Below are positions 45,161 to 64,000 of a stretch of 64,000 nucleotides of DNA, piece by piece. The translations under genes and the position numbers were made by a program. The DNA comes from Actinomycetota bacterium (GTDB lineage: Bacteria > Actinomycetota > Actinomycetes > Propionibacteriales > Propionibacteriaceae), in NCBI GenBank assembly GCA_020161795.1, contig JAIUOR010000046.1, positions 1 to 64,000 on the forward strand, written 5' to 3'. Each line of letters begins with the position of its first letter. Within the stretch, counting starts at the first letter, position 1. Below the pieces are notes generated by a model. It made no database searches. It saw nothing but the letters and a program-made list of their open reading frames with translations, and was not told the origin of the DNA.

Positions 45161-45308
45161 ATTCGATCCTCAGGTGTCTGGGGTTGTCCGGATCAGTCTA
45201 GTCCGGATCGTACGGGCTCCGAACTGGGTGGCCGGCGGCACCGAGATCGGCTCCGCCCGCGTGTCAGTCCCGCCGGTCAACGGCGACGTGAGCGAGCATG
45301 GAGGCCAC

Positions 45309-46583
45309 ATGCCACGCACGGTGAGACGCAGCCCGGACACGATCCAGCTCCGGGTGACCTCCCCGCCGTCCGCCTCGGAGCGGACGGCGCAGTTGGCGAC
45401 CGTCCCGCTGCTGCCCTGGCCGCTGGCCGCCGGCGTCGGCGGGGCCGGTGCCGCGCTGCTGGGATGGTTGCTCGTCGTGGGAGTGGTCGGCGTCGGCTGG
45501 TTCACCGCCAGCGCGATTCCGCTGCCCGACGTCCTGGCCTTCTGCTCCGGCATCTGGCTGCTCGCCCACGGCGGCAGCGCGGAGATCGGTGGATTGCCGG
45601 TCACGCTCGCCCCGCTGGGGCTGACCCTGGTGGGCGCCGGGCTGGCTGCCGCGATCGGCCGGTTCGCGGCCGGCCAGGCCAGGCTCGCCCGGCCCGGCGC
45701 GCAGCGGCTGACCGACCGGCTGGCGCTGGCGCTCCAGGTCTGCGGCCTGCTGGGAGCCGGCTACGCAGCCGTGACGGCGGCGATGGCCGCGACGCTGGAC
45801 CTCGAGAATCTGGTGGCCCCCACCCTCGGCGCGCTCGCGGTCGCCGTCGTGGCCGGCTTCATCGGTGCCCTGCGTGGTCTCGAGGTGAAGCTGGTCGAAC
45901 TGCTGCCGTCCTGGCTGCGCGCGATCGCCTACGGTGGCGCCGCCGGCGGCCTCGCGCTGCTGGCGTTGGGCGCGGTGCTCGTGGGGCTCGCGATGCTGGC
46001 GGGCGCCGAACAGGTGGCCGTCATCGAGACGGGGCTGGGCCTGGATCCGGCCGGGCAGTTCATCTGGGCGGTGATCGCGCTGGCCTATCTGCCGACGGTG
46101 GCCACCTGGGCGCTGTCCTGGGCGCTGGGCGGCGGGTTCGTGGTCGGCACCGGCTCGCTGGTGACGGTCTCGGGCACCAAACTCGGCATGCTGCCGGCGA
46201 TCCCGCTGCTCGGTGGGCTGCCGCCGGTCGGCGTGGCTCCGGAGACCACCGTCGCCTGGCTGGCCTCCGGTGCCGTGATCGGCCTGCTCGCCGGCGCCGT
46301 GGCGGCCGGGCGGATCCGACGGGCGTCGTCCAGCGCCGTCGCGGCCGGCCAGGCGGTGGCCGTCGGCCTGGGGGCGGGTCTTCTGACGGTCGCCGCCCTG
46401 CTCGGCATGGCCGCTCTCGGCACCGGCGCGCTGGGCGCGCTGCGGCTGGCCGAACTGGGACCGAGGCTGCCCGAGCTGGCGCTGATCGCGGGCCCGATGA
46501 TCGCCGGCTCGGCATTGCTCGGCGGGTTGCTGCGGTGGCTGGTGGGCATGGTGCGGAACCGCCGGCCGGCCTCGGTAGGCTGA
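45309..46583 (+). CDS. PerM-like (DUF6350-type) polytopic membrane protein
   Basis: A 424-residue protein with about ten hydrophobic segments from residue 35 to 410 and a basic C-terminus. By position (after sucCD, before purN) it matches Rv0955 (PerM), a membrane protein needed for cell division and persistence in M. tuberculosis. The ATG at 45309 has GGAGG 4 bases upstream; an in-frame GTG at 45288 would add 7 residues. Function is inferred from synteny and topology only. Confidence 0.75.
   Translation: MPRTVRRSPDTIQLRVTSPPSASERTAQLATVPLLPWPLAAGVGGAGAALLGWLLVVGVVGVGWFTASAIPLPDVLAFCSGIWLLAHGGSAEIGGLPVTLAPLGLTLVGAGLAAAIGRFAAGQARLARPGAQRLTDRLALALQVCGLLGAGYAAVTAAMAATLDLENLVAPTLGALAVAVVAGFIGALRGLEVKLVELLPSWLRAIAYGGAAGGLALLALGAVLVGLAMLAGAEQVAVIETGLGLDPAGQFIWAVIALAYLPTVATWALSWALGGGFVVGTGSLVTVSGTKLGMLPAIPLLGGLPPVGVAPETTVAWLASGAVIGLLAGAVAAGRIRRASSSAVAAGQAVAVGLGAGLLTVAALLGMAALGTGALGALRLAELGPRLPELALIAGPMIAGSALLGGLLRWLVGMVRNRRPASVG
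46576..46581 (+). promoter_or_regulatory. -10 box of purN
   Basis: TAGGCT, overlapping the end of the PerM-like gene, lies 6 nt before the purN ATG at 46588 with no ribosome site between, indicating a leaderless purN message. Confidence 0.5.
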
Positions 46584-46587
46584 ACCC

Positions 46588-47157
46588 ATGCCGTTGCGCC
46601 TGGTCGTCCTGGTCTCCGGCTCGGGCACCCTGCTCCAGGCCCTGCTGGACGCCCAGGCCGCGGGAACGCTGGCCGGCGAGGTGGTGGCGGTCGGATCCGA
46701 TCGCGCCGACGCCCAAGGCCTGCAGCGCGCCGAACGGGCCGGCATCCCCACCTTCGTCCACCCGCTGGCCAGGGGCGCCGATCGCGCGGCCTGGGATGCC
46801 GGGCTGGTCGAGGCCGTCGCGCGGTTCGCGCCCGATCTGGTGGTGAGCGCCGGGTTCATGAAGCTGGTCGGGCCGGCCTTCCTCAGCCGGTTCGCGATGG
46901 TGAACACCCATCCTGCGCTGCTCCCGGCCTTCCCCGGCATGCACGGCGTGGCCGACGCCCTGGCCCACGGGGTGAAGGTGACCGGTGCCACCCTGTTCGC
47001 CGTCGACGAGGGCGTCGACACCGGACGGATCCTCGCCCAGGAGGCTGTCACGGTGCTGCCGCAGGACACGGTCGAGACCCTCCACGAACGGATCAAGGTG
47101 GTCGAGCGCCGGATCCTGGTCCACTTCGTCAACGACTACGCCGCCCACAAGGAATGA
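46588..47157 (+). CDS. purN: Phosphoribosylglycinamide formyltransferase
   Basis: A 189-residue GAR transformylase of purine synthesis. It has the N-terminal [28 protein letters not shown], and the catalytic block [34 protein letters not shown] with the NTH...H...D triad. It is immediately followed by purH, as in Rv0956-Rv0957. Normal length. Confidence 0.96.
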
Positions 47158-47158
47158 C

Positions 47159-48718
<1,560 letters not shown>

Positions 48719-48727
48719 GGGTTCGCG

Positions 48728-49576
48728 ATGACTGCGCAGATACTGGACGGACGAGCGGCCGCGGCCGCGATCAAGGACGAGCTCACCGCCCGGGTGGCCG
48801 CGCTGGCCGCGCGGGGGGTGACGCCGGGGCTGGGCACCGTCCTGGTCGGCGAGGATCCGGGCAGCCAGTCGTACGTCCGGATGAAGCACCGCGACTGCGC
48901 CGAGATCGGCATCGAGTCGCTCCGGGTGGAGCTGCCCTCCGACGCCACCGCCGAGACCGTCACCGCGGCCATCGTCGAACTGAACGCCGACCCGGCCTGC
49001 ACCGGCTACATCGTGCAGTTGCCACTGCCTCGCCAGCTGGACGAGAACGCGATCCTGGAGCTGGTCGATCCCGCCAAGGACGCCGACGGGCTGCACCCGG
49101 TGAACCTCGGCAAGCTGGTGCTGAACGAGCCCGCCCCGCTCCCGTGCACCCCGCGCGGCATCGTGGAATTGCTGCGCCGCCATGACATCCCGCTGGCCGG
49201 CGCCGAGGTCTGCGTGGTCGGCCGCGGGATCACGGTGGGGCGCCCGCTCGGGTTGATCCTCACCCGTCGCAGCGAGAACTCGACGGTGACGTTGTGCCAC
49301 ACCGGCACCCGGGACCTGGCCGCGCACACCCGCCGGGCCGACATCGTGGTGGCGGCCGCCGGGGTGCCGGGGCTCATCACTGCCGACCTGATCGCCGAAG
49401 GCGCTGTGGTGCTCGACGTGGGCGTCAGCAGGGTGGACGGCAAGCTGGTCGGCGATGTCGCGCCGGATGTGCTGGAGAAGGCCTCCTGGGTGGCTCCGAA
49501 TCCCGGTGGGGTGGGTCCGATGACCCGGGCTATGCTGCTGCGCAATGTGGTCGAGCGCGCCGAGGCCCAGCCATGA
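48728..49576 (+). CDS. folD: Methylene-THF dehydrogenase/cyclohydrolase FolD
   Basis: A 282-residue bifunctional enzyme that makes 10-formyl-THF precursors. Motifs: [23 protein letters not shown] with the catalytic lysine, [45 protein letters not shown] and the terminal [16 protein letters not shown]. It lies 9 bases after purH, and the pairing is functional. The last codons overlap the next gene by 4 bases. Confidence 0.96.
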
Positions 49577-50813: not shown

Positions 50814-52532
50814 TCAGCGGAAGTCGGATTCCAGGTACTGGCCTTCGGCGGAGGCTTCTGCCACCCGGCTGGCCTCCTGCTCGCGCAACTCGACCCGGCG
50901 GATCTTGCCGGAGATGGTCTTGGGCAACTCCTGGACGAACTCCAGGATCCGCACCCGCTGGAAGCCGGAGAGCCGCTGCCGGGCGTGGGCGAAGATGGCT
51001 CGCGCGGCCACGTCCTGCTCGGCGGCGAAATCCTGGACCAGGCAGACGAAGGCCTTCGGGACGGCCGCCCGCAGCGGGTCGGGGCTGGGGACGATCGCCA
51101 CCTCGGTCACGTAGGGGTGCTCCAGCAGGATCGACTCCAGCTCGAACGGGGAGATCTTGTAGTCGGAGGCCTTGAAGACATCGTCGGCCCGTCCGACATA
51201 GGTCAGATAGCCCTCTTCATCTGTAGAGGCGATGTCCCCGGTGTGGTAGTAGCCGTCGCGGCAGGCCTCCGCGGTCATCTCCGGGTCGTCGTGGTACCCG
51301 GCCATCAGGCCGAGGATCGGCTGCGACAGGTCCAGGCAGATCTCGCCCTCCTCCGGGCTGCGTTCCCCGGTCACCGGGTCGAGCAGGACGACCGGGTAGC
51401 CCGGCATCGGGCGTCCCATCGACCCGTCCTTGACCACCTGGCCGGGGGGGTTGCCGACCGCGCAGGTCATCTCGGTCTGCCCGAAGCCATCGCGGATGGT
51501 GCCGCCCCAGGCCTGTCGCACCTGGGAGATGACCTCGGGGTTCAGCGGCTCACCGGCGCCGACCAGCTCCCGCGGCGGCCGCGAGAGCTGGGTGAGGTCG
51601 GCCTGGATCAGCATCCGCCAGACCGTCGGCGGCGCGCAGAAGGTGGTGACCTCGTGGGTCTCCATCACCTGCATCAGCGCGGCGGCGTCGAAGCGTTCGT
51701 AGTTGAAGACGAAGACGGTCGCCTGGGCCAGGAAGGGGGAGAAGAAGTTGCTCCAGGCGTGCTTGCCCCAGCCCGGAGAGGAGATGTTGAGATGGACGTC
51801 GCCCGGCCGCACGCCCAGCCACCACATGGTGGAGAGGTGGCCGACCGGATAGGAGACGTGGGTGTGACCCACCAGCTTGGGACGGGCGGTGGTACCGGAG
51901 GTGAAGTACAGCAGGCTGAGCGCGTCCGCCGGGGTCGGGCGGCTCGGGGTGTACTCGGCCGGAGCGTTGTAGGAGTCGGCCATCGGCGCCCAGCCGAGCG
52001 GGACGTCGCTCCCGATTCCGATCCGCACCACCGAGCGCGGCACATCGTCCAGGCGGGCGCGCAGGGAGCCGGGCGCCGCGACCGCGCGGGCCTGCCCGTG
52101 CTCGACCCGGTAGGCCAGATCGGCGGCCGAGAGCAGGGTGGAGGTGGGGATCGCGACCGCCCGGATCTTCAGCAGGGCCAGCAGCAGTTCCCACAGCTCG
52201 ATGGTGTTGTTGAGCATCACGATCACCCGGTCGCCTTCGCCGACGCCCAGCCCGCGCAGCCAGCGCGCCACCTGGTCGGAGCGCCGGGAGAGTTCGGCGT
52301 AGCTCCAGCTCTGAGCCTGCAGGTCGGACGAGACGATGGTGACCGCCGCGCGATCGGGGTGTTCGCCCGCGACCACGTCGAACCACTGCGTGGCGAAGTT
52401 GAATTCGGTGAGTTCGGGCCAGCGGAAGCCCTCGACCGCTCCGGAGTAGTCGGTGCCGTGGGCGAAGAGGAAGTCGCGGGCCTCCCGCACGGCGAGGGTG
52501 GCGGGGGTGGCTGGCCGGCCGGTGAAGGTCAT
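50814..52532 (-). CDS. AMP-forming acyl-CoA synthetase (medium-chain type)
   Basis: A 572-residue ANL-superfamily enzyme that activates a carboxylic acid with ATP and CoA. The adenylate-forming P-loop is LLYFTSGTTARPKLV, the A5 motif is DGFGQTEM, A7 is YYHTGDIAS, and the catalytic lysine is in LPKTISGKIRRVELR. The EFNFATQWFDV N-terminal region fits medium-chain or acetyl/propionyl-like synthetases rather than long-chain FadD; the exact acid is unknown. AGGAG precedes the ATG at 52532. The upstream 71-base region is crowded with palindromes, which suggests regulation by a TetR-type protein encoded elsewhere. Confidence 0.87.
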   Translation of the reverse strand: MTFTGRPATPATLAVREARDFLFAHGTDYSGAVEGFRWPELTEFNFATQWFDVVAGEHPDRAAVTIVSSDLQAQSWSYAELSRRSDQVARWLRGLGVGEGDRVIVMLNNTIELWELLLALLKIRAVAIPTSTLLSAADLAYRVEHGQARAVAAPGSLRARLDDVPRSVVRIGIGSDVPLGWAPMADSYNAPAEYTPSRPTPADALSLLYFTSGTTARPKLVGHTHVSYPVGHLSTMWWLGVRPGDVHLNISSPGWGKHAWSNFFSPFLAQATVFVFNYERFDAAALMQVMETHEVTTFCAPPTVWRMLIQADLTQLSRPPRELVGAGEPLNPEVISQVRQAWGGTIRDGFGQTEMTCAVGNPPGQVVKDGSMGRPMPGYPVVLLDPVTGERSPEEGEICLDLSQPILGLMAGYHDDPEMTAEACRDGYYHTGDIASTDEEGYLTYVGRADDVFKASDYKISPFELESILLEHPYVTEVAIVPSPDPLRAAVPKAFVCLVQDFAAEQDVAARAIFAHARQRLSGFQRVRILEFVQELPKTISGKIRRVELREQEASRVAEASAEGQYLESDFR

Positions 52533-52545
52533 CGATGCTCCTGGG

Positions 52546-52575
52546 CTACGAAACCGTAGGTTACGGCTACGTAGC
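52546..52575 (-). promoter_or_regulatory. Cluster of overlapping palindromes at the acyl-CoA synthetase promoter
   Basis: Three perfect palindromes lie together: CTACG-N4-CGTAG (52546-52559), CCGTA-GGT-TACGG (52554-52566) and GCTACGTAGC (52566-52575). A minus-strand -10 candidate TAACCT falls within them. TACG/CGTA half-sites repeat across 30 bases, as expected of an operator for a dimeric TetR-like repressor. The regulator is not encoded next door. Confidence 0.6.
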
Positions 52576-52603
52576 TTACCGTGGACGGACCCGGCCGGGG
52601 CGG

Positions 52604-53395
52604 CTATTTCAGGGCGCCCGCGGTCAGCCCGCGTTCGAAGAACTTCTGGAAGCAGAGATAGGCCGTGACGATCGGCAGGCACATCAGCACCAGCGCGGCG
52701 AAGATCTTCGGCACATCGGAGCCGTAGGTCGCCGTGAAGTAGGTGGGGATCTGGGTGATCGCCTGGAGCGACTCGTTCTGCAGGAACAGCAGCGGCAGGA
52801 GGAACTCGTTCCACGAGTTCAGGAAGCTCCACACGATGATGACCGCCACGATCGGGCGGGAGAGCGGCATGACCACGCGGATCAGGGTGCCGAAGCTGGT
52901 CGCGCCGTCGATCTTGGCCGCGTCGAGGAGCTCCTCTGGCAGTCCCTGGATGTAGTTGCGGGTGAGCAGGATGGTCATCGGCAGGATGACCGTGCACAGC
53001 GGGATGATGACGGCCAGGAAGTTGTTGAACAGGCCCGCCTGGCGCACCAGCATGTAGATCGGGACGATCAGCGCGATGACCGGCAGCATCATGCCGGCCA
53101 CGATCGCGCGGAAGAGCAGTTCCCGTCCGGCGAAGTGCAGCTTGCCGAGGGCGTAGCCCGCCAGCATGGTGCAGACGAAGACGATCGCGACGGTGCCGGC
53201 CGACATCACCAGCGAGTTGATCAGGAACTGCACGAACGGGGTCTTGGTGACGACCGCGGAGTAATTGGCGGAGGCGCCGGCGCCCTCGAAGCTGATCGCG
53301 ATGATCCAGTACAACGGCAATGCGAACGGCAGGACGGCGACGGTGGCGAGTAGCTGATGGATGACCCGGCTGCGGTGGGTTGGGCGACCGATCAT
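52604..53395 (-). CDS. Sugar ABC transporter permease (MalG type), second sugar operon
   Basis: A 263-residue permease with six membrane segments and the EAA loop LPEELLDAAKIDGATSFGTLIRVVMPL. It is the last gene of the leftward LacI operon and begins 1 base after the partner permease ends. The ATG at 53395 follows GGAGG in the end of the upstream gene. It is slightly short but complete. Confidence 0.9.
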   Translation of the reverse strand: MIGRPTHRSRVIHQLLATVAVLPFALPLYWIIAISFEGAGASANYSAVVTKTPFVQFLINSLVMSAGTVAIVFVCTMLAGYALGKLHFAGRELLFRAIVAGMMLPVIALIVPIYMLVRQAGLFNNFLAVIIPLCTVILPMTILLTRNYIQGLPEELLDAAKIDGATSFGTLIRVVMPLSRPIVAVIIVWSFLNSWNEFLLPLLFLQNESLQAITQIPTYFTATYGSDVPKIFAALVLMCLPIVTAYLCFQKFFERGLTAGALK

Positions 53396-53396
53396 G

Positions 53397-54308
53397 TCAG
53401 TCCTCCTGCTCGTAGCGGTAGACGCGCATCTGCACCAGGGTCAGTGCCAGGGCCAGGAGCAGCAGCACGACCGAGAGCGCCGCGCCGTAGCCGACGTGGA
53501 ACTGCGAGATGCTCATCTTGTAGATGTAGGTGGTGAGGAACTCGGTGCTTCGGCCGGGGCCGCCACCGGTGATCAGGAAGACGATGTCGAAGGTCTTCAG
53601 CGCGCCGATCACGCCGGTGAGAGCCAGGGTGATGTGGGTGGAGCGAAGCTGCGGCACGATGATGTGCCGGATCGTGCGCCAGGTGCCGGCGCCGTCGATC
53701 TGGGCGGCCTCCAGGTGGCTGGAGTCGATCTGCGACAGCGCGGCCTGGTAGAGGATGAAGCTGAAGCCGGTCCACTGGAAGATGTTGACCGCTGCCAGGG
53801 CGTACAGCGCCCAGGTCGGGTCGGCGATCCAGGCCTGGCTGAGGAAGCCGAGCCCGACCGCGTCCAGCACCGCGTTGACCTGGCCGTCGGGGCGGAGGAA
53901 CTGCCGGAAGGCGGTGGAGATCGCGGCCGGCGCCAGCACCACGGGGATGAAGACGATCGCCTTGTACACCGCGCGGCCGACGATCGGACCGGAGAGCACC
54001 AGGGCGAGCGCCAGCCCGATGACCATCTGGGCGACGATCGTGATGACGCCGAAGACGGCCACGTTGGTCAGAGCCGTCCAGAAGATCGGATCCTGGGAGA
54101 TCTCGACGTAGTTGCCCAGCCCGATCGAGGTGGGGTTCGGGTCGATGCCGTTCCAGTCCAGCGTCGAGGCCCAGAAGTTGTACCCGACGCCGAAGTAGGT
54201 GATCCCGACGATCAACAGGAGCGCGGGCAGGAGGTACAGGTAGGCGGTGTAGTGGCCCCGCCTCCGGCGACGCGGTCGTGCCGCGGCGACCGGCTCGGTC
54301 GTCCCCAT
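53397..54308 (-). CDS. Sugar ABC transporter permease (MalF type), second sugar operon
   Basis: A 303-residue permease with a basic leader (RPRRRRRGHYTA), six membrane segments, and the EAA loop SSHLEAAQIDGAGTWRTIRHIIVPQL. The ATG at 54308 has AAAGGAG upstream. It follows the binding-protein gene after a 56-base gap that contains a strong hairpin. Like the first sugar operon, this one has no ATPase gene. Confidence 0.92.
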   Translation of the reverse strand: MGTTEPVAAARPRRRRRGHYTAYLYLLPALLLIVGITYFGVGYNFWASTLDWNGIDPNPTSIGLGNYVEISQDPIFWTALTNVAVFGVITIVAQMVIGLALALVLSGPIVGRAVYKAIVFIPVVLAPAAISTAFRQFLRPDGQVNAVLDAVGLGFLSQAWIADPTWALYALAAVNIFQWTGFSFILYQAALSQIDSSHLEAAQIDGAGTWRTIRHIIVPQLRSTHITLALTGVIGALKTFDIVFLITGGGPGRSTEFLTTYIYKMSISQFHVGYGAALSVVLLLLALALTLVQMRVYRYEQED

Positions 54309-54325
54309 CCTGGCTCCTTTCCGGT

Positions 54326-54357
54326 GGTGTGGTGCGGGCGAGTGCCCGCACCACACC
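54326..54357 (-). terminator. Strong intra-operon hairpin after the second binding-protein gene
   Basis: A perfect 14-bp stem (GGTGTGGTGCGGGC at 54326-54339, complement at 54344-54357) with a 4-nt loop lies between the binding protein and permease genes. No U-run follows. It probably protects the upstream mRNA or gives partial termination so that binding protein exceeds permease. Confidence 0.75.
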
Positions 54358-54364
54358 GTTCGTG

Positions 54365-55717
54365 TCAGCTGGCGGCGATGGCTGCCTGAACCGCGGCTGC
54401 GGCGTCGGCGGGGGTCTGCTGCCCGGAGGCAACGGCGGACAGCGCGTCACCCAGCGCGGTACGGACGTCGGCGCTCTGGATCTCGCGCGGGCCGATCATG
54501 TCGGCCAGCGCCGGTCCCTGCGCCTCCAGGGCAGTGGCCTGCTCCGGGGTCTTCACGTCCGACAGATCCAGCGGCACCGAGGCCAGCGCGGGCTGCTGAA
54601 CCGTCTTGGCCATCATGGCCTGAGCCTCCTCGTTGGCGGTGAGCCAGGTCGCGAAGGTGATGGCGGCATCCTTGGCATCGCTGCCCGACGAGACGGCGAA
54701 GCCGACATCCGGGCCACCGAACATGGTTCCGGTCTTGCCGCCGTCGACCACCTGCGGGAAGAAGTACGGCATGAAGATGGTGTTCGGATCGAAGTCGTCA
54801 CCGTAGGTCTCGGCGTACTGCGCCATCCGGGCATTGGTGGTGTCGGAGTTCTGCCAGCTGCCGAAGATGATCAGGGCCGCCTGACCCTTCTTGAAGGCGT
54901 CGTTGGCATCCGGGTAGGCGGTCGCGCCCAGCGCACCGTCCTGGAACAGCCCGTCGTCGAAGAAGCTCTTCCAGATCTCGAAGGCCTTGACGAACTCAGG
55001 GCCGCTGAAATCGGCTTCCTTGTTCATCGCCTTGTAGAAGGCCCCCGGGGACACCTGGTTGACGATGGACTGGTAGGCGTCGATGTTCTGCCAGGCGTCC
55101 TTGGCGCCATGGACGATGCAGGCCTTGCCGGCGTCCTTGACCGCGGCGCAGAAGCTCTTGAGCTCGGCCATGGTGGTGGGCACCTTGAGGTTCAGCGAGT
55201 CGACCAGGGTCTGGTTGGCCCACATCAGGCCACCGCCGGTCACCATCCACGGCAGGCCGACCAGCTTGCCGTCGACCGAGAGCTGATCGGTCGCGGTCAG
55301 CTTCGACTTCCAGTCCGAACCCAGCGCGCTCTCCAGCGCGGGGGCGAGATCCTCGGCCAGCGGAGCGAACTGGTTCGTGAGCGCTCCGACCTGCAGGCCG
55401 AAGACGTCCGGGCCCGAACCCGACTGCAGGGCGAGCTGCACGGTGTTGACGTAGTCGGAGTACTGGATGAAGCGATGCTGCACCTTGATGCCCTCATGCG
55501 AGGCCTCGAAGGCCTCGATGTAGGGGACGGCGGTGTTCTGGTCGGGGTTCCACGACCAGAAGTCGATGGTGACCTCGCCCGCCGGTGCCTCCCCGGTCGG
55601 GGCGGCGGTGCCCGGGGCGGAGGTGGTCGGCGTGGCGCCGCCGCCACAGGCGGACAGCATGAGGGCCATCGCTGCGCCCGCGGCTGCGAGGGCGCTGAGG
55701 CGGAATGGGGATTTCAT
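54365..55717 (-). CDS. Sugar ABC transporter substrate-binding lipoprotein, second sugar operon
   Basis: A 450-residue extracellular solute-binding protein (family 1). The signal sequence ends in lipobox MLSAC (Cys24) and is followed by a Gly/Thr/Ala/Pro linker. The mature domain includes IDFWSWNP, LPWMVTGGGLMWANQTLVD and the FATWLTANEEAQAMMAK helix. AGGAAGGAA precedes the ATG at 55717. Ligand unknown; the two downstream-acting ADP-ribosylglycohydrolase-like enzymes encoded upstream in the same operon suggest a glycoside with an unusual sugar or N-glycosidic bond. Confidence 0.9.
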   Translation of the reverse strand: MKSPFRLSALAAAGAAMALMLSACGGGATPTTSAPGTAAPTGEAPAGEVTIDFWSWNPDQNTAVPYIEAFEASHEGIKVQHRFIQYSDYVNTVQLALQSGSGPDVFGLQVGALTNQFAPLAEDLAPALESALGSDWKSKLTATDQLSVDGKLVGLPWMVTGGGLMWANQTLVDSLNLKVPTTMAELKSFCAAVKDAGKACIVHGAKDAWQNIDAYQSIVNQVSPGAFYKAMNKEADFSGPEFVKAFEIWKSFFDDGLFQDGALGATAYPDANDAFKKGQAALIIFGSWQNSDTTNARMAQYAETYGDDFDPNTIFMPYFFPQVVDGGKTGTMFGGPDVGFAVSSGSDAKDAAITFATWLTANEEAQAMMAKTVQQPALASVPLDLSDVKTPEQATALEAQGPALADMIGPREIQSADVRTALGDALSAVASGQQTPADAAAAVQAAIAAS

Positions 55718-55738
55718 GGGATTCCTTCCTGGTTGTCG

Positions 55739-57250
55739 TCAGTCGACTGGAGGTTCGGAGTGGGCCCGCAGCGCGTTCGGGATCCACTGGTAGCTGGGGC
55801 GTTCGACGAGCGCTGTCACCCATTCGGCGGTGGACCGGCCGGCCGGCGGACGCTTGAAGGCGACCACCAGTTCGTGCCGATCGGTGTCAACGGTGAAGTC
55901 CAGGTACTGGCCCACCGGTGGCATGTGCGGAGCCGGGAACTGGAACTGGCTCCCTTGCGCGGCGTAGAGGGGCATGCCGTCCCACCACACCCGGTAGTGT
56001 TCGGTCGAGTTGACCATCAACCGCAGGTCGCGTCGCCCGGCACAGTCGATCTGGTACTTCACGAACAGCACGCGGTCGGCGAAGTCCTCCCGGTTCCAGC
56101 GCACCCAGGTTCCAGGCAGCCGGCCGGGAGCCCACTCCAGGCCCTGCGGCAGCGTGCCGCCCACGGGTGGCAACTCGGTGTGGTCACGGATCTCCCACTT
56201 GCCGAAGGAGGTGTTGTACCAGGCCAGCCCGACCTCGATCTCGTGCGCGGCCGGATCGAAGCCGGTGCCGAGCTGGACGGGACTGCTGCCCTCCAGCCGA
56301 TCGCGCAGATCGAGCACGAGATCGGTGAACAGCTCCAGGGTGGCCGGCGGATCGATGCCGGTGACCTCTGCGTTGAGCACCAGGTCGCGTCCGATCGGCG
56401 CGAGCCAGCGCTCGGGGATGCCGTCGGGATCGAGGATGCCCAGCAGGGCGCCGATGCTCGCCGTCGTGCTGTCGCAATCCAGGCCGCAGTTGTTGGTGAT
56501 GCAGATCCGCTCGCTGAAGTCCGCTCCGGCCAGCCAGCCCAGCACGACGAACCCGGTATTGGGCCGCACATCGGTGAAGTCGGAGTTGCCGTAGGCAGCC
56601 ACGATCCTGCGCTGCACCTCCTGCCAGTCCCCGGTTTCGGCGAGCCAGGCCCGGGTGTCCTGGACCACGCGGTGGATGGCGGAATCGGCCGGGATGCCGG
56701 CCAGCGCGGTGTCGAGCAGGGTGTCGGGATCGGATTCGACGAAGGCGAGCGACTGCAGGCGGGCGAGGAACTGGGCTGCCAGGATGCCGTCGCCGTCGTG
56801 GTCGAAACATGCGTCGGCGTGGGCATAGGCGGCGGCCAGGTCGGGATCCCCGGCGGCCAGGCATGCCCAGAGCTCGGTGCGGATCGCCGCCCCTTCGCCG
56901 CAGGTGAACCAGTTGTCGTAGGAGCCGGTGAACGGAGGGCGGATCCCCTCGGCGTAGTTGCGCTGGCCCACCCCGTACTCGTTCCACGGGAAGGCGACGT
57001 GATCGTCCCACGCCGCCGCCAGGGCGAGCGAGTCCACCCTGGGCTGCGGCATCTCGTCCATGATGCAGGCGTAGAGCACCTGCAGGTCGAGATCGTCGTT
57101 GGGCACCATCGTGGTGGGGACCGGGTAGTAGAAGTCCGCGTCCAGCGGACCCTCCAGGCCCTCGAAGGTCTGCCCGAGGGTGCCGCCGACGGCCTTGCCG
57201 AGCCAGCAGCCGATGATCCGGTCGCGCAGTGACGGCGAGCTAGGAGGCAT
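55739..57250 (-). CDS. ADP-ribosylglycohydrolase-fold hydrolase with C-terminal beta domain (paralogue 1)
   Basis: A 503-residue protein. Residues 8-345 match the ADP-ribosylglycohydrolase (DraG/ARH) fold: GCWLGKAVGGTLG at the N-terminus, the metal pair PNDDLD (Asp52, Asp53), and GLDCDST (Asp258, Asp260) near the end of the domain. Compared with DraG, the usual T-D-D is N-D-D and the G-D-A-G motif has Lys19. The last 140 residues look like a beta-sandwich with carbohydrate-domain features (WVRWNREDFADRVLFVKYQID, VNSTEHYRVWWDGMPLY). No signal peptide, so it acts on an imported substrate. It overlaps its paralogue by 11 bases. The substrate is not known; a furanoside or N-riboside is a reasonable guess. 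Confidence 0.8.
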   Translation of the reverse strand: MPPSSPSLRDRIIGCWLGKAVGGTLGQTFEGLEGPLDADFYYPVPTTMVPNDDLDLQVLYACIMDEMPQPRVDSLALAAAWDDHVAFPWNEYGVGQRNYAEGIRPPFTGSYDNWFTCGEGAAIRTELWACLAAGDPDLAAAYAHADACFDHDGDGILAAQFLARLQSLAFVESDPDTLLDTALAGIPADSAIHRVVQDTRAWLAETGDWQEVQRRIVAAYGNSDFTDVRPNTGFVVLGWLAGADFSERICITNNCGLDCDSTTASIGALLGILDPDGIPERWLAPIGRDLVLNAEVTGIDPPATLELFTDLVLDLRDRLEGSSPVQLGTGFDPAAHEIEVGLAWYNTSFGKWEIRDHTELPPVGGTLPQGLEWAPGRLPGTWVRWNREDFADRVLFVKYQIDCAGRRDLRLMVNSTEHYRVWWDGMPLYAAQGSQFQFPAPHMPPVGQYLDFTVDTDRHELVVAFKRPPAGRSTAEWVTALVERPSYQWIPNALRAHSEPPVD

Positions 57251-59222
57251 CGTTGCTCCACGGGGAGCGGCTGCGATCCAGGTCGTAGACGTGTGGGTTG
57301 AGCGGTGCCGGGCCGGAGAACCCCAGGTGGAGTTCGGCCGGCGGGTGGCTGCCGTCGTGCACGAGCTTGACCAGCACCTCGTTCCACCCCTCCCGGAGCG
57401 TGACGTAGGCGCCGATCCCGTCAGCCGCCCGCTGGTTCGGCCGGATCCGCCGGTAGTCGCGGCTCTCGCCGGTGAGCTCACCGTTCAGCCAGTACCGGAC
57501 CGGCACGCTCGGATCGACGATCAGCCAGCCGTCCTGCTCGCTGGGGCTGTGGAAGAAGGCCTGCAGGTAGACGACGCCCGGTTCGGTGAAGGCTTCGGCC
57601 ACCGGCTGGGCGTAGCCATCGCTGGACGCCTCCCGCCACCCACCCGGACGCGCATCGGCCAGGGTCGGATCGCCGGTGACGGTCTCCGGAGAATACGGAG
57701 CGTCGAGCGGATCGCCGTCCGGCACCGGGAACACCTGGCTGAGCCGGCTGGCCAGCGCTCCCAGCAGCACGACGGGGATCGCCGGGGCGGCCGGGTAGCC
57801 GATCGCGTTCAGTTCCAGCCACAGCCGGTTCGAGGGCCGCACCAGCGGCATCGGCGGCACGTCCACCGCCCAGGCGAGCGTGCGGGTCTGCCCGGGGGCG
57901 AGTTCCACCTCCTGCCCGGTGACGGCCGGCCAGCCCGACGGGGTACGGAGCGCGACCTGCACGGTCATCGGATCGGCTCGCCGGTTCGTGAGGCTGACCC
58001 GCAGGGGGTGCGAGGACGCCGGATGGCAGGCGGGTCCGTCCACGTAGTCGACCACGACATCGACGTCCAGGCCCGGGTGCGGCACCTGATTCGGGCTGGC
58101 GGTGAACATCTGCCGGGTCTCGTCGTCGGCGTAGAGATCGGCCAGCGTGACAGCGAAGCCGGTGCCCTCCTGTACCAGGCCGTGGTGCCGCAGGACCAGC
58201 TGGGACACGACCCGGATCCGGTCGACGAGCTCGTCGAGATTCGCCGGGACGGGGTTGGGCCCGTCGCTGAGATGGCGTACGCCGCCCCAGTCCTCGTTGG
58301 TGGAGATGCCGGTGCCCAGCGGGGCGACCCATCGCTCGGGCAGGGCGTCGCTGCCGTAGAGGATGCCGAGATAGCTCCCGATCGCGGCACCGGAGGAATC
58401 GGTGTCGTAGCCGCAGTTGACCGTCTTGCACATGCCGTCGCCGAAGTCGGTGCCGTACAGCAGGCCGATGACCTGGAAGCCGGTGTTGATCGGCGAGTAC
58501 TGCGCGTTGTAGTGCGGGGTCGCCGACAGGACCGCGCGCCGGGCCTGCTTCCAGTCCAGCCCGTCGCGGTGGGCATCGCGGGCCGCCTCGACCGCGCGCC
58601 GGATCATGGACGACTCGGGAACGTAGGACAGCGCGATGTCGATCAGGAGCTGGGCGTCCTGCACCACGAAGGCAGCCGACTCCAGCGCGGTGTTGAAGAG
58701 CTCGCCGAAGACACCCTCGCCGCCGGCGTGGTCGCAGATCGCGTCCTGGTAGGCGTACTTCGCCGCCACGCGGGGCGCGCCCGGCGCGAGGCAGGCCCAC
58801 AGCTCGGAGCGGATCGGCGAGCCCATGCAGTCGATGAACCAATTGTTGAAATGGCCGCTCACCGGCGGTTCCAGGCCGAGGCGCAGATTGCGCTTGGAGA
58901 GCCCGTACTCGTCGAAGTTGTAGCCGACGTGGTCGAGCCAGTAGCGCGAGAGCTCCCGCGCGGTGAGCGCCGGCCCGACCTCCTCCGCCGCCTTCAGCCA
59001 GGCGAGCTGCATCTCGAAGTCGTCGTTCGGCAGGCCGCCTTCCTGCAGTTCGGGGTACCACCAGACGTCGAACGGCTCGTCGCGCCCCCAGGCCTCCTCC
59101 AGCGGAGTGCCCAGCGTCCCGCCGGCATTCTTGCCCTGCCAGCAGCCATAGACCCGATCGCGGATCTGCGGGCCGGCGATATCGACGTCGAAGACGGTGT
59201 CAGGACTCGGCGTGCTGACCAT
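57240..59222 (-). CDS. ADP-ribosylglycohydrolase-fold hydrolase with C-terminal beta domain (paralogue 2)
   Basis: A 660-residue paralogue of the preceding protein. The hydrolase domain covers about residues 20-390: YGCWQGKNAGGTLGTP, the metal pair PNDDFE (Asp67, Asp68) and GYDTDSS (Asp273, Asp275). About 270 further residues form beta-rich domains with an NEW3-like segment (LRVSLTNRRADPMTVQVAL) and a lectin-like end (VRYWLNGELTGESRDYRRI, REGWNEVLVKLVHDG). It is cytosolic by lack of a signal. The start overlaps the lacI end by 23 bases. Two such enzymes side by side in a transporter operon suggest sequential or alternative cleavage of one family of glycosides. Confidence 0.8.
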   Translation of the reverse strand: MVSTPSPDTVFDVDIAGPQIRDRVYGCWQGKNAGGTLGTPLEEAWGRDEPFDVWWYPELQEGGLPNDDFEMQLAWLKAAEEVGPALTARELSRYWLDHVGYNFDEYGLSKRNLRLGLEPPVSGHFNNWFIDCMGSPIRSELWACLAPGAPRVAAKYAYQDAICDHAGGEGVFGELFNTALESAAFVVQDAQLLIDIALSYVPESSMIRRAVEAARDAHRDGLDWKQARRAVLSATPHYNAQYSPINTGFQVIGLLYGTDFGDGMCKTVNCGYDTDSSGAAIGSYLGILYGSDALPERWVAPLGTGISTNEDWGGVRHLSDGPNPVPANLDELVDRIRVVSQLVLRHHGLVQEGTGFAVTLADLYADDETRQMFTASPNQVPHPGLDVDVVVDYVDGPACHPASSHPLRVSLTNRRADPMTVQVALRTPSGWPAVTGQEVELAPGQTRTLAWAVDVPPMPLVRPSNRLWLELNAIGYPAAPAIPVVLLGALASRLSQVFPVPDGDPLDAPYSPETVTGDPTLADARPGGWREASSDGYAQPVAEAFTEPGVVYLQAFFHSPSEQDGWLIVDPSVPVRYWLNGELTGESRDYRRIRPNQRAADGIGAYVTLREGWNEVLVKLVHDGSHPPAELHLGFSGPAPLNPHVYDLDRSRSPWSNDAS

Positions 59223-60267
59223 GGTGTGTCCTTTCGGAAGGCGGTTGAACTGAGGGGCGGCCAGGGGACGCCGGTGGGGCGCAGGATTCCCGGATCACCA
59301 GCTCGCAGGAGAGCGTGACGGTGCGGGGGGAGTGGCCGGCGGGATCGGGTCCGAGCCGCTGCCACAGCAGCTCGAGCGCGGTCTGGCCGAGCAGGGCCAT
59401 CGGCTGGGCGACCGTGGTCAGCGGCGGGATGGCGTGGGCGGCCAGATCGACGTTGTCGCAGCCGATGACCGAGAGCTGGGTGGGCACGGCGATCCCCAGG
59501 CTGTGCGCGGCCTGCACCACGCCGAGGGCGACCGCGTCGTTGGCTGCGAAGACGGCGGTGGGCGGCCGATCCTGTGCGAACAGCCGGGTTGTCGCCTGGT
59601 GGCCGGCCTCCCGATCGAGCGAACCGAGCACGATCAGCTCCGGATCGCACGGCAGCCCATGGGCCTCCAACGTGGTGCGGTAGGCCTGGTAGCGGCCCGA
59701 GGCCATGGTCGAGCTGCCGATGTAGGCGATCCGGGTGTGGCCCAGTTCGATCAGATAGGTGACCGCCTGCTGGGCGCCGGAACGGGTGTCGACCGTGACC
59801 AGGTCGGTCACCGACGGGGTGGTGTGAAGGCCGATGCCCACGACCGGCATGGTGCGGGCCGCGGCGACCAGTGCGGCGTTGTATTCCGGGCTCTCGGGCG
59901 GCGTCACGACCAGCCCCTCCACCTCATGGCTGCGCAGCAACTCCACGGCATCGATCGCCTGGTTGGGATCCCCGCCGGAGTCGGCCAGCACGACTCCGTA
60001 GCCGCGGGCACGCGCGGCCTGACCCAGCGCCGAGGCCACCTCGGCGGTGAAGGGGTTCTTCAGCTGGGAGACGACGAAACCCAGCAGGCCGGTCCGCTTG
60101 GTCGTGAGGCTGGCGGCCGCCCGGTTCTGGATGTAGCCGAGCTCACTGATCGCGGCGGCGATGCGCTCCCGGGCGGCGGCGGAGACATAGCCGTTGCCGG
60201 TCAGGTAGCGCGACACGGTTCCCACCGACACCCCGGCCTTGGCTGCCACATCGTACGCCGTTGGCAT
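59200..60267 (-). CDS. LacI-family regulator of the second sugar operon
   Basis: A 355-residue LacI/GalR protein. The helix-turn-helix is TAYDVAAKAGVSVGTVSRYLTG at residues 3-24 with hinge IQNRAAASLTTKRTG, and the sensor domain follows. A Pro/Ser/His-rich tail of about 20 residues extends past the usual end and overlaps the next gene by 23 bases. As first gene of the operon it is likely autoregulated through the palindrome at 60284-60317. GAGGAGG precedes the ATG. Confidence 0.92.
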   Translation of the reverse strand: MPTAYDVAAKAGVSVGTVSRYLTGNGYVSAAARERIAAAISELGYIQNRAAASLTTKRTGLLGFVVSQLKNPFTAEVASALGQAARARGYGVVLADSGGDPNQAIDAVELLRSHEVEGLVVTPPESPEYNAALVAAARTMPVVGIGLHTTPSVTDLVTVDTRSGAQQAVTYLIELGHTRIAYIGSSTMASGRYQAYRTTLEAHGLPCDPELIVLGSLDREAGHQATTRLFAQDRPPTAVFAANDAVALGVVQAAHSLGIAVPTQLSVIGCDNVDLAAHAIPPLTTVAQPMALLGQTALELLWQRLGPDPAGHSPRTVTLSCELVIRESCAPPASPGRPSVQPPSERTHHGQHAES

Positions 60268-60283
60268 CGCAGCCTCCTCGCTG

Positions 60284-60317
60284 TATGTAACCGGTTCTAT
60301 ATAGAACCGGTTACATA
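60284..60317. promoter_or_regulatory. Perfect 34-bp palindrome: paired LacI operators
   Basis: TATGTAACCGGTTCTAT at 60284-60300 is followed by its exact reverse complement at 60301-60317. Each half contains an AACCGGTT core (60289-60296 and 60305-60312), itself a palindrome of LacI type, with centres 16 bp apart. It lies between the promoter and the lacI start, so bound repressor would block transcription of the whole operon. Confidence 0.9.
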
Positions 60318-60319
60318 TT

Positions 60320-60343
60320 CGTTCAGGTCGTCACCGATGTCAA
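60320..60343 (-). promoter_or_regulatory. Promoter of the second sugar operon
   Basis: On the minus strand a perfect -35 TTGACA (60343-60338) is followed 17 bases later by a weak -10 GAATAT (about 60320-60315), which runs into the palindromic operator. The -35 is clear; the -10 is tentative. Confidence 0.5.
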
Positions 60344-60357
60344 CCCCATGGGAGCGT

Positions 60358-61458
60358 TCAGTCCGGGATCGGGCGAAACCGCGGGGGAGTCCAGGCCTTG
60401 TTGGTGGGACGCATGTCCTGGCCGGTGAGGTCTTCGTGGACGCGATAGGCGGCCAGGGCGCCGGTGAGCAACTGCGCCCAGGGTTCGGGGCCGGCTGGGC
60501 TGAACTCGGAGGCGACGTAGACGCCGGGCAGCGGAGTGCACAGCCGGGGAAGGTCGAGCAGAGTGCGCCAGCTGTCCCATCGCGGCCCGACGGTCGCGGC
60601 AGCCCGCAGGCGGCGGGGCGGACGTTGACCGGTCAGCGCCGCGTACCGCCAGGGCGAGGTGGTGATCACGACCGCCCGGCAGGACAGCACGCCGTCGGCG
60701 GTGGTCACCCGGCCCGGGGCGACGCGGTGGACCTCCGTGGCCCAGCGCATGGCCACCCCGCGGTCGGCCAGACGATGATGCAGGACGTCCACCAGCCGGG
60801 CTGCGGGCTGCGGGGCGTCGGCGGCGTCGATCAGCTGCCAGCGCCCGAAGGTGCGTTCGATGCTGAGCCGGGTTCCCAGCCAGCCGGGGGCGCGGTGCGG
60901 ATCGCTGTCCCGGCGGAGGGCCAGCTCGGTGAACAGGGTTCCCAGCGGTCCCGCCTGCCGGGCCAGATCGGCCAGCGTCTCGTTCGTGCGCAGCGCGGCC
61001 CGGCTGGCACGGCTGAGCCGGGAGGCCGTGAGTTCGGCCTCCACCCCCAGCGGACGCAACGCGAGCCAGGCCGTGTCGAGCCGGTCGAGCAGGTTGCGCC
61101 AGGCGGTGGCGGCATCCTCGCCGACCGCGCCGACGAGGCTGTGCCACTGGCCCGCCCGGTCGGCGGGCAGCGTCAGCTCGCCGGCCGGCGTGAGGTAGGT
61201 CGCCGGCGGCGCGGGGACGAGCCGGAGCTGGTGCAGTCCGAGCGCTCCTTCCAGCGGGCGTCCCGACTTCTTGAAGAGGTCGCGCCAGGCGGCCGGCAGC
61301 ACGACCAGGTTCGGGTTCTCGTCCAGCGGCGAGAGCGGTGAAGCGGCGTCCGCCTCGGTGACCGGGGTGCGATCGAGCACGACCACCTCGTGGTTCACCC
61401 GGGCGAGCCGCGCTGCCGCTGCCAGCCCGGCCAGGGTCGCGCCCACGACGACGATCAT
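60358..61458 (-). CDS. FAD-dependent oxidoreductase (amine-oxidase/desaturase-like)
   Basis: A 366-residue flavoprotein-like protein. The N-terminal Rossmann segment reads IVVVGATLAGLAAAARLA; the second glycine of GxGxxG is replaced by Thr, a departure from the norm. Later parts have the insertion and FAD-contact pattern of phytoene desaturases (GQWHSLVGAVGEDAATAWRNLLDRL, VVITTSPWRYAAL, PGVYVASEFSPAGPEPWAQLLTGALAAYRV). The start overlaps the stop of the FAD/Fe-S gene by 4 bases (ATGA), so the two are coupled. The substrate is unknown. Confidence 0.7.
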   Translation of the reverse strand: MIVVVGATLAGLAAAARLARVNHEVVVLDRTPVTEADAASPLSPLDENPNLVVLPAAWRDLFKKSGRPLEGALGLHQLRLVPAPPATYLTPAGELTLPADRAGQWHSLVGAVGEDAATAWRNLLDRLDTAWLALRPLGVEAELTASRLSRASRAALRTNETLADLARQAGPLGTLFTELALRRDSDPHRAPGWLGTRLSIERTFGRWQLIDAADAPQPAARLVDVLHHRLADRGVAMRWATEVHRVAPGRVTTADGVLSCRAVVITTSPWRYAALTGQRPPRRLRAAATVGPRWDSWRTLLDLPRLCTPLPGVYVASEFSPAGPEPWAQLLTGALAAYRVHEDLTGQDMRPTNKAWTPPRFRPIPD

Positions 61459-64000
61459 GGCCGCTCCAGGTGGAGGGCGAGGAGTTCGGCCAGGGTGAGC
61501 GCCTGGCGTCCGGCCAGGTCGGCGACCTGGGTGCGGCAGGAGAAGCCGTCGGCGACCACGATCGCGTCCGGCCCGGCCCGGCGGATGGCGGGCAGGAGTT
61601 GCTGCTCGGCGATGGCGACCGAGACCTCGTAGTGGCCGCGCTCGACCCCGAAGTTGCCGGCCAGGCCGCAGCAGCCGCCCAGGGTGGTGACGCTCGCCCC
61701 GGTGCTGGCCAGCAGCGCGGCGTCGGCCTGCCAGCCGAGCACGGCGGCGTGGTGGCAGTGCGGCTGCACCACCAGTTCGTGACCGGTGAGATCGGGCGGG
61801 GTATAGCCGGGGGTTTCGGCGAGCAGTTCGGCCAGGGTGCGGGTCGCGGCGGCGACGGCCGGCAGCCGCGGGTCGTCGATCAGCTCAGCCGCATCGTCGC
61901 GCAGCACCGTCAGGCAGGAGGGCTCGACCCCCAGGATGGGCAGGCCGTGCTCGGCGTAGGGGTGCAGGGTGTCGACCGCCTGGCGCAGCCGGCGCCGGGC
62001 GGCGTCGCGCTGTCCGGTGGTGATCCAGGTCAGCCCGCAGCAGGCCGGGTCGGTGATCAGTTCGGGCGCCCAGCCCGCCGCCAGCAGCACCTTCACCAGG
62101 GCGGGCAGGTGGGTGCCCTCGAAGCAGTCGGTGAAGGAGTCGACCCAGAGTGCGACCGGACGGGGGCGGCCGGCGTGCTCCGGCGTCATCCCCCGGTAGG
62201 CGGGGATCTCCCGGCGGGCCGTCCGGGAGGCGAAGCGGGGGAGTGAGCGGCGCCGGTCGACTCCGGCCAGCCAGCGGAGCAGGTGCGTCAGGCCGGGGGT
62301 GGCAAGCGTCCAGTTCACGACCGCGGCCAGCCCCGGCGTCCGGGCGATCAGCCGGGCCCAGCCGGGAAGCCGGCCCAGGGCGTAGTGGCTGCGGGGTCGC
62401 GGGCGGCCACGGTAGGTCTCGGCCAGCACCTGCGACTTGTAGGAGGCCAGGTCGACCCCGGTCGGGCAATCCCGGGCGCAGCCCTTGCAGGAGAGGCAGA
62501 GGTCGAGCGCTTCGTGCACCTCCGGGGCGGCGAAGCCGCCGGGCAGGGTGCCGCCCAGCAGCTCGGCCAGAATGTGCGCCCGGCCGCGGGTGGAGTCCTT
62601 CTCGGCTCCGGTCGCCCGGTAGGAGGGGCACATGATGTCGGCGGATTCGCCGTGGTGGCTGACGCAGCGTCCCACCCCCGAACAGCGGTGAACCCCCGCC
62701 GCCAATCCCGGATGAGCCAGTGCCAGCGGAGAGGTGGTCAGGGCGGTGCGGAGGTCGGCATCCAGCGGCGCCGGATCGACGAGCACCCCGGGGTTGAGCA
62801 GATTCTGTGGATCGAAGATCTGCTTGACGGCGGCGAACAGTGCCAGGGCCTGCGGGGAGTACATCGCCGGGAGCAGCTCCGAACGCGCCCGGCCGTCACC
62901 GTGTTCGCCCGACATCGACCCGTCATGGCTGCCGGCCAGAGCCGCCGCGTCCAGCAGGAAGGCCCGCAGCCGAGCCGGGCCGTCGGCCGCCACCAGCGGG
63001 AAGTCGATCCGGGCGTGGACGCAGCCCTCGCCGAAATGCCCATAGGGCGCGGCCTGCAGCCCGTGCTGCGCGAGCAGGGCCTCGAAGTCGCGCAGATAGT
63101 CGCCCAGGCGGGCCGGGGGCACGGCGGCGTCCTCCCAGCCCGCGTAGGCCGGACGGGTCAGGCTGGTCTCGGCCAGGCCGGCGCCGTCGGCCCGGACCCG
63201 CCACAGCGCCGCGGCCTGCGCCGGATCGTCCACCACCCGGCCGTCCAGCGCCCCGGCATCGGCCAGCAGCCGCTCCCCGGCGGCGCGGAGCTCGTCCAGG
63301 TCGTCCCCGGCCAGTTCGGCGAACAGCCAGCCCCGGCCGGCGGGCAACTCGGGCACGGGTCGACGCCGGCGCGCGGCATCGACGATCCGGGCGTCCAGGC
63401 CCTCCAGCGCGACCGGACGATGGGCGAGCACCGCGGGCACCGCATCCGCCGCCTCGGCCATGTCCGGATAGCCCAGGGCTACCACCACCGTCTGCGCGGG
63501 CGCCTGGACGAGCCGGAGCTCGGCACCGGTGACCACGGCCAGGGTGCCCTCCGAGCCGGCCAGGAAGGCGGTGACGTCGAAGCCGTGCTCGGGCAACAGA
63601 TGCTCCAGGCTGTAGCCGGAGACCTGACGGGCGAAGCGCCCGAACTCCGTCCGGATCACCCCCAGGTTGGCCATCACCAGCTCGTGCAGCCGGCGCAGGG
63701 TGGGGGAGTCGGTTGCCCGCAGGTCGGCCCGGGTGTCGAGCCGCAGGTGCTCGCCGGTGCCGGTGATCACGTCCAGGGAGAGCAGGTTGTCCGCGGTCCG
63801 GCCGTACCCCAGCGCCCGGGGCCCGCAGGCGTTGTTGCCGATCATGCCGCCGATCGTGCAGCGGCTGTGGGTGGAGGGGTCGGGGCCGAACCTCAGCCCA
63901 TGGGGCGCCGCGGCCCGCTGCAATTGCGCCTGGACGACGCCCGGCTCGACGCGAGCGGCCCGGCCGCCGGGCTCGACCTCGGCGATCGAGGTGAGATACC
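61455..64000 (-). CDS. FAD/Fe-S glycolate or D-lactate dehydrogenase-like protein (5' end beyond window)
   Basis: The visible 848 residues run off the right edge without a start. First comes a FAD_binding_4 part (GPDPSTHSRCTIGGMIGNNACG, with YLTSIAEVEPGGRAAR before it), then the FAD-oxidase C-terminal domain (YGHFGEGCVHARIDF, SGEHGDGRARSELL). A Fe-S half follows with CSGVGRC...CPSYRAT and CLSCKGCARDCP cluster motifs, and two CCG domains (DPACCGLTW, GCCGLAGNFG) end the protein. This is a GlcD-GlcF fusion of about 950 residues, known in actinobacteria as a membrane-associated D-lactate, glycolate or 2-hydroxyglutarate dehydrogenase that feeds electrons to quinone. The substrate cannot be told from sequence. 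Confidence 0.88.
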   Translation of the reverse strand, partial: YLTSIAEVEPGGRAARVEPGVVQAQLQRAAAPHGLRFGPDPSTHSRCTIGGMIGNNACGPRALGYGRTADNLLSLDVITGTGEHLRLDTRADLRATDSPTLRRLHELVMANLGVIRTEFGRFARQVSGYSLEHLLPEHGFDVTAFLAGSEGTLAVVTGAELRLVQAPAQTVVVALGYPDMAEAADAVPAVLAHRPVALEGLDARIVDAARRRRPVPELPAGRGWLFAELAGDDLDELRAAGERLLADAGALDGRVVDDPAQAAALWRVRADGAGLAETSLTRPAYAGWEDAAVPPARLGDYLRDFEALLAQHGLQAAPYGHFGEGCVHARIDFPLVAADGPARLRAFLLDAAALAGSHDGSMSGEHGDGRARSELLPAMYSPQALALFAAVKQIFDPQNLLNPGVLVDPAPLDADLRTALTTSPLALAHPGLAAGVHRCSGVGRCVSHHGESADIMCPSYRATGAEKDSTRGRAHILAELLGGTLPGGFAAPEVHEALDLCLSCKGCARDCPTGVDLASYKSQVLAETYRGRPRPRSHYALGRLPGWARLIARTPGLAAVVNWTLATPGLTHLLRWLAGVDRRRSLPRFASRTARREIPAYRGMTPEHAGRPRPVALWVDSFTDCFEGTHLPALVKVLLAAGWAPELITDPACCGLTWITTGQRDAARRRLRQAVDTLHPYAEHGLPILGVEPSCLTVLRDDAAELIDDPRLPAVAAATRTLAELLAETPGYTPPDLTGHELVVQPHCHHAAVLGWQADAALLASTGASVTTLGGCCGLAGNFGVERGHYEVSVAIAEQQLLPAIRRAGPDAIVVADGFSCRTQVADLAGRQALTLAELLALHLERP

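Follow-up and report, generated by a model that had tools for sequence, protein, structure and literature searches.

The 64,000-nucleotide stretch analysed here (the window; positions 1 to 64,000 of contig JAIUOR010000046.1, from a member of the Propionibacteriaceae whose 3.47-Mb genome is in 67 contigs) carries on its minus strand an operon in which a lacI gene is followed by genes for two proteins of the ADP-ribosylhydrolase fold, here called A and B, and then by a solute-binding lipoprotein and two sugar ATP-binding cassette (ABC) permeases (Table 1). The lacI and A genes overlap by 23 bp and A and B by 11 bp, with gaps of 21, 8 and 1 bp further along; coordinates and strand agree with the gene order and close spacing given in the initial annotation. 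The operon thus has LacI with operators, an SBP_bac_1-type binding protein and two permeases, the set by which we recognised LacI-controlled sugar ABC importer operons. Among NCBIfam-style equivalogs, the binding protein resembles the GanS and NgcE types and the permeases the GlcT/UgpA/MalF and UgpE/GlcU/MalG types, all below every equivalog cut-off. No ATPase gene is present in the operon, and one UgpC/MsiK-type ATPase above cut-off was found in the genome; Gram-positive importers of this kind share an ATPase. Below, loci fetched for comparison are labelled L and genomes G, with G000 denoting the window's genome.

Table 1 Features of the lacI-A-B-importer operon, in window positions
Feature	Position	Strand	Basis
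TTGACA, -35-like box 5' of lacI, no clear -10	60338..60343	-	upstream sequence comparison
Perfect 34-bp palindrome, two LacI-type operators (60302-60315, 60286-60299)	60284..60317	-	palindrome and upstream comparison
LacI-family repressor, 355 aa	59200..60267	-	PF00356 and PF13377 (Pfam)
Enzyme A, 660 aa: ADP-ribosylhydrolase fold ~12-345, NEW3-like beta domain ~380-490, C-terminal beta region	57240..59222	-	Pfam, model
NDD motif of A, N66-D68	59019..59027	-	alignment
DTDS motif of A, D273-S276	58395..58406	-	alignment
Enzyme B, 503 aa: ADP-ribosylhydrolase fold, short C-terminal beta region	55739..57250	-	Pfam, model
NDD motif of B, N51-D53	57092..57100	-	alignment
DCDS motif of B, D258-S261	56468..56479	-	alignment
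Solute-binding lipoprotein, 450 aa	54365..55717	-	PF13416 and PF01547 (SBP_bac_8/SBP_bac_1); lipobox LSAC read in sequence
Sugar ABC permease, MalF/UgpA side; GTG start, alternative start 54308	53397..54356	-	BPD_transp_1
Sugar ABC permease, MalG/UgpE side	52604..53395	-	BPD_transp_1

PF03747 matched A at 120.2 bits (E 1.8e-34) and B at 104.5 bits (E 1e-29) against a gathering cut-off of 26.2, and both proteins, which share 31% identity, have the all-helical ARH/DraG fold. Downstream of this domain, the NEW3/NPCBM_assoc match in A reached 23.3 bits, slightly below its cut-off of 24.4, and a Foldseek search with the beta region of A returned matches of low TM score to GH115, GH78, GH31 and sialidase entries. 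The earlier description of C-terminal beta domains typical of glycosidases is thus borne out in part; the tail of B is modelled unreliably. Neither protein begins with a stretch resembling a signal peptide when the sequence is read by eye, so both should work in the cytosol.

Both A and B retain the catalytic Glu and the DD and DxD(S/T) metal residues initially described. Alignment placed E42, D67, D68, D273, D275 and S276 of A opposite E41, D77, D78, D314, D316 and T317 of ARH3. In both proteins Asn replaces the Thr before DD (T76 of ARH3), as had been read at the outset, and Gly (Gly35 in A) replaces the Asp of the GD motif (D34 of ARH3). The reported change of GD to GK proved to be out of register, since alignment with DraG puts the new Lys (K31 of A) at a Leu/Ala position and Gly35 at that of the Asp. 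The loop preceding the conserved Arg is also altered, reading NNWFIDCMGSPIR in A; the loop corresponding to the adenosine-binding residues F143 and S148 of ARH3 aligned unreliably, and the model is uncertain at 102-135. With the DraG equivalog TIGR02662 (cut-off 337.05 bits), A scored 26.5 bits and B gave no match. On the residue evidence, A and B have probably preserved the metal chemistry but not the set-up for ADP-ribosyl substrates.

Relatives of A were sought in sets of 41, 396, 391, 12, 343 and 348 genomes (overlapping, with differing E-value limits) and in four named contigs. Sampled members, aligned with a profile seeded with five useful family sequences (a sixth, L001, was uninformative and cost sensitivity at most), were grouped by motif, using regular expressions, and by a quick-method tree with long branches flagged, from which DraG, ARH1 and ARH3 were left out. 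The motifs define a canonical set (GD, S/T-DD, DxD-T/S), to which both E. coli YegU and the window genome's third member of the family belong, a DDD set with Arg, Lys or Gln at position 31 and Asn, Cys or Val at 35, and an NDD set with Lys31 and Gly35. In the tree, the 21 NDD rows group with L186, L187 and L188 as a single 24-row clade (SH-aLRT 100), which, together with the DDD rows and L077, a long branch (2.07, support 100) divides from the canonical set. Within the NDD clade, found in Actinomycetota and Bacillota among the sampled genomes, A and B are old branches: L186 and L188, from Bacillota (the phylum of L027), group with B, and the branch of A includes members from both phyla. Close relatives of A are rare: within the order, 9 of 391 genomes have one in addition to the genome of the window. 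In Streptomyces, the genus of L026, an A-type protein at E 1e-50 was found in 1 of 343 genomes (that of L026 itself), and 5 of 348 genomes from the phylum of L027 had one, its own included; none of 26 pattern stretches on viral contigs was confirmed as a relative. On this sequence evidence, A and B belong to a divergent clade inside the known PF03747 superfamily. Among the matches listed from the open-licence literature, judged by titles and the starts of abstracts, no paper dealt with this clade or with a glycosidase of the ADP-ribosylhydrolase fold.

Control of the operon by LacI, as first proposed, is supported by the region 5' of lacI, where the palindrome TATGTAACCGGTTCTATATAGAACCGGTTACATA is built of two 14-bp CG-centred sites spaced 16 bp. 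Allowing up to two mismatches, the operator 14-mer occurs at only these two places in the whole 3.47-Mb genome, so that the inducer, and hence the substrate, is directly testable. Operator-like sites also lie 5' of lacI in L024, L057, L121, L122 and L123 (in L121 and L122 one site was flagged by script and the other spotted by eye in the sequence), and the TTGACA box, whose first base is position 60343, where the initial annotation ended the operon, recurs 5' of lacI in the relatives' upstream stretches, as TTGACG in L122. Operator-like sites were found in 4 of 17 further upstream stretches, two of these being the single L120 site viewed from both sides, and L026 and L120 have different CG-centred sites near their operons. 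An automatic scan of 52300-60500 gave 0 promoter sites and three terminator-like sites (2.1 expected). The operator arrangement fits a repressor that would act locally and control its own gene.

Linkage to sugar importers was scored by an operon test (a same-strand run with gaps of at most 250 bp that includes a sugar permease), with gene labels at relatives' loci taken only from a set of reference proteins. Addition of L186, L187 and L188 by the tree brought the clade to 22 loci; L118, which shares a contig with L024, was dropped, and a 38-bit permease match in L155 was left uncounted. Eleven of these 22 loci passed (the window, L024, L057, L120, L121, L122, L123, L026, L153, L186 and L188), compared with 5 of 342 non-transporter genes in 20 background stretches from four A-bearing genomes; binomial figures for the linkage (9 or 10 of 19) ignore kinship. 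Scored against the window's permeases, those of L121-L123 and L153 reached 97-134 bits and those of L024, L057 and L119 420-518 bits, which suggests that the pairing of A/B with an importer was made or kept with differing transporters. A family member was called at 19 of the 20 canonical control places fetched (not at L173), and none of the 19 had a sugar permease or PfkB kinase nearby. This control is weak, since only one of the places is from the window's own class, the rest being spread over other classes in the phylum, and since small genomes are frequent among them; it is countered by 8 of 46 canonical-motif proteins in permease operons, all beside DDD-type genes in loci fetched for those.

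The absence of a glycoside hydrolase (GH) from the operon, on which the initial annotation had relied, holds for the window but not for its relatives L120, L058 and L188. L120 adjoins GH78, PL8 (seen at this locus only) and GH5 genes; L058 a sulfatase, an aldo/keto reductase and GH5; L188 DUF5696 and GH5; L121 a divergent GH10 and a gene with sub-cut-off GHL6/GHL10 matches; L184 a GHL10/CBM9 gene; and L026 WbsX, an alcohol dehydrogenase and an L-rhamnonate dehydratase over cut-off. At L154 (9765-11768, minus strand), a 667-aa protein adjoining the A-type gene has no Pfam match and no NCBIfam match at E 1e-20, and could be an unrecognised carbohydrate enzyme. Rhamnose was considered as the common sugar and set aside: it fits two loci only (GH78 in L120, L-rhamnonate dehydratase in L026), the isomerase route not having been searched. 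Products of PL8 were also weighed as the substrate and set aside, that enzyme having been seen at the one locus.

Reading together the operon, the catalytic-domain fold, the metal motif, the operators and the recurrent linkage, all of them features of sequence, we infer with a probability of about 0.6 that A and B are cytosolic, metal-dependent glycosidases for the compound that is imported. The LacI-type repressor would shut its own operon through the two promoter operators until an imported sugar derivative arrives, and the ABC importer, probably powered by a shared MsiK/UgpC-type ATPase encoded elsewhere, would take up an oligosaccharide or glycoside. Once the compound is inside the cell, A and B would hold two divalent metals through E42, D67, D68, D273, D275 and S276 (A numbering). 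ARH3 substrates chelate the metal via ribose oxygens, according to PMC8319183. By analogy, the metals of A and B would chelate the vicinal hydroxyls of the terminal sugar, presumably a cis-diol, after which the glycosidic bond would be cleaved; the beta domains may assist saccharide binding. The catabolic, glycosidase-like role put forward initially is supported by the operators, by importer linkage recurring in two phyla, and by the glycosidases and lyases that adjoin some relatives.

Several observations weigh against this assignment. The operon test was failed by 11 of the 22 loci, counts that are non-independent because several loci are close kin; L119 failed through a 339-bp gap, and the other ten had no convincing sugar permease in the stretch, with contig ends within about 2 kb in L027, L155 and L183. 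L124 sits between uvrC and uvrA. Of the two structure models, that of A is of middling quality, with a predicted local distance difference test (pLDDT) of 73.6 and the Glu flap (38-65) below 50, and that of B is poor (59.1). The reversed operator pattern, run as a control, hit three places by chance in the genome (3 + 3 by strand), so position and conservation carry the operator argument. L153 and L186, on the Bacillota side, showed no LacI-type site 5' of lacI and are among the 13 of 17 upstream stretches without a site. No common sugar pathway emerged: L-rhamnonate dehydratase (L026 query, E up to 1e-60) occurs in 4 of 17 A-bearing genomes, namely G658, G621, G027 (51% identity) and L026's own G792, but not in G000; of the 13 same-genus genomes that lack A, 0 have it. 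For the clade as a whole, no member has a known activity.

A wider proposal, which we advance tentatively, is that the NDD clade founds a new GH family: dinuclear-metal glycosidases that have the ADP-ribosylhydrolase fold, carry beta domains and are used by Actinomycetota and Bacillota in breaking down carbohydrates. As old branches of this clade, A and B may act jointly, cutting successive bonds of one imported saccharide.

Riboside or nucleoside hydrolysis, in which A and B would free ribose, or a sugar closely akin to it, from N- or O-ribosides brought in by the importer, draws on the DDD sister group: of its 45 proteins, 14 lie in an operon with a PfkB kinase and 16 in one with a sugar permease. 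The four DDD-group kinases tested match ribokinase best, one of them over cut-off (308.5 versus 299.65), a tie that suggests ribosides for that group; the same pairing of a PF03747 protein with a kinase is seen in E. coli yegTUV and in L001, where PfkB and nucleoside hydrolase genes lie nearby. The furanosides or N-ribosides first suggested as substrates would therefore suit the DDD group, but a PfkB gene was found near 0 of 21 A/B-type proteins. The neighbours of relatives include polysaccharide enzymes, and binding proteins of the SBP_bac_1/8 type, to which that of the window belongs, are common for oligosaccharides; we consider the riboside reading of A and B unlikely. Equally unlikely is that the imported compound is handled by A and B otherwise than by glycosidic cleavage, through some other reaction on a metal-chelated sugar or in a binding or regulatory role. 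The altered motif would allow this, as would the pairing of different relatives with different glycosidases, which could do their own cut elsewhere in the pathway, yet the catalytic Glu and metal-binding Asp residues are retained and the window's operon contains no other hydrolase. Very improbable, despite the shared fold and metal motif, is that A and B are DraG-/ARH3-like ADP-ribosyl hydrolases that reverse the modification of a pathway protein or salvage ADP-ribose, because residues needed by human ARH3 (D34 and T76) are replaced, D34G and T76R, like E41A, D77N and D78N, being reported in PMC8319183 to lower ARH3 activity severely, and because the DraG equivalog scores fall short, no ADP-ribosyltransferase was seen among the annotated operon genes, and the beta domains and sugar-import context are additional.

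Other PF03747 clusters and neighbouring genes were noted in the same stretches. In L001 (524-3903; contig C3 of G000, ~82312-86226), there is a 4-bp overlap between the canonical third PF03747 gene and a gene for a PfkB kinase, with an SDR-like gene (by eye) and an inosine-uridine nucleoside hydrolase nearby, a cluster likely to serve riboside salvage. Streptomyces-family clusters (L085 5941-13989; also L082-L084, L086 and L088-L091) have four unlike PF03747 genes in a row; in L085 the genes that come next are of the ribokinase, CoA-transferase III and HpcH/HpaI aldolase types. In one of the paralogues the flap Glu is missing, as is part of the DxD motif. L073 (2449-11744) and its kin L068, L072, L074 and L076 have a run that comprises a regulator, two permeases, a binding protein, two PF03747 genes, a ribokinase-type kinase and a protein of 661 aa with an FGE-sulfatase-type domain. 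Within the window, an acyl-CoA synthetase gene (50814-52532, minus strand) starts 71 bp past the last permease and is probably outside the system, since L057 has a major facilitator superfamily (MFS) gene at that place. Further out lie a DUF6350 gene followed by the purine/folate genes for formyltransferase, AICARFT/IMPCHase and tetrahydrofolate dehydrogenase/cyclohydrolase (45228-49576, plus strand), and a FAD-linked oxidase fused to iron-sulfur and CCG domains (61455-63998, minus strand) that possibly continues beyond the window end.

If A and B are glycosidases, a fold interpreted almost by reflex as a sign of ADP-ribose chemistry would be supplying carbohydrate-active enzymes that now go mislabelled in annotation, and 'ADP-ribosylglycohydrolase' genes in sugar operons, perhaps yegU too, would gain a testable role. 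With DraG, ARH1 and ARH3, A and B have in common the PF03747 fold, the catalytic Glu and the DD and DxD(S/T) motifs, and they differ in the change of TDD to NDD, in the Gly that replaces the Asp of GD, in the altered loop ahead of the conserved Arg, in their extra C-terminal beta domains and in their sugar-import operon. E. coli yegTUV, in which the gene for YegU, a protein of unproven function (PMC10819704), is joined under GgaR by genes for an MFS transporter and a kinase of the PfkB type, likewise places a PF03747 protein and a transporter in one repressed operon; however, the motifs of YegU are canonical and it lacks beta domains, the transporter and kinase stand where the window has an ABC importer, and the repressor is of the GntR type. 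In layout the operon resembles LacI-controlled sugar ABC importer operons, which share the LacI repressor, binding lipoprotein, two permeases, promoter operators and the lack of an ATPase gene, whereas in the window two PF03747 enzymes occupy the place of the cytosolic glycosidase.

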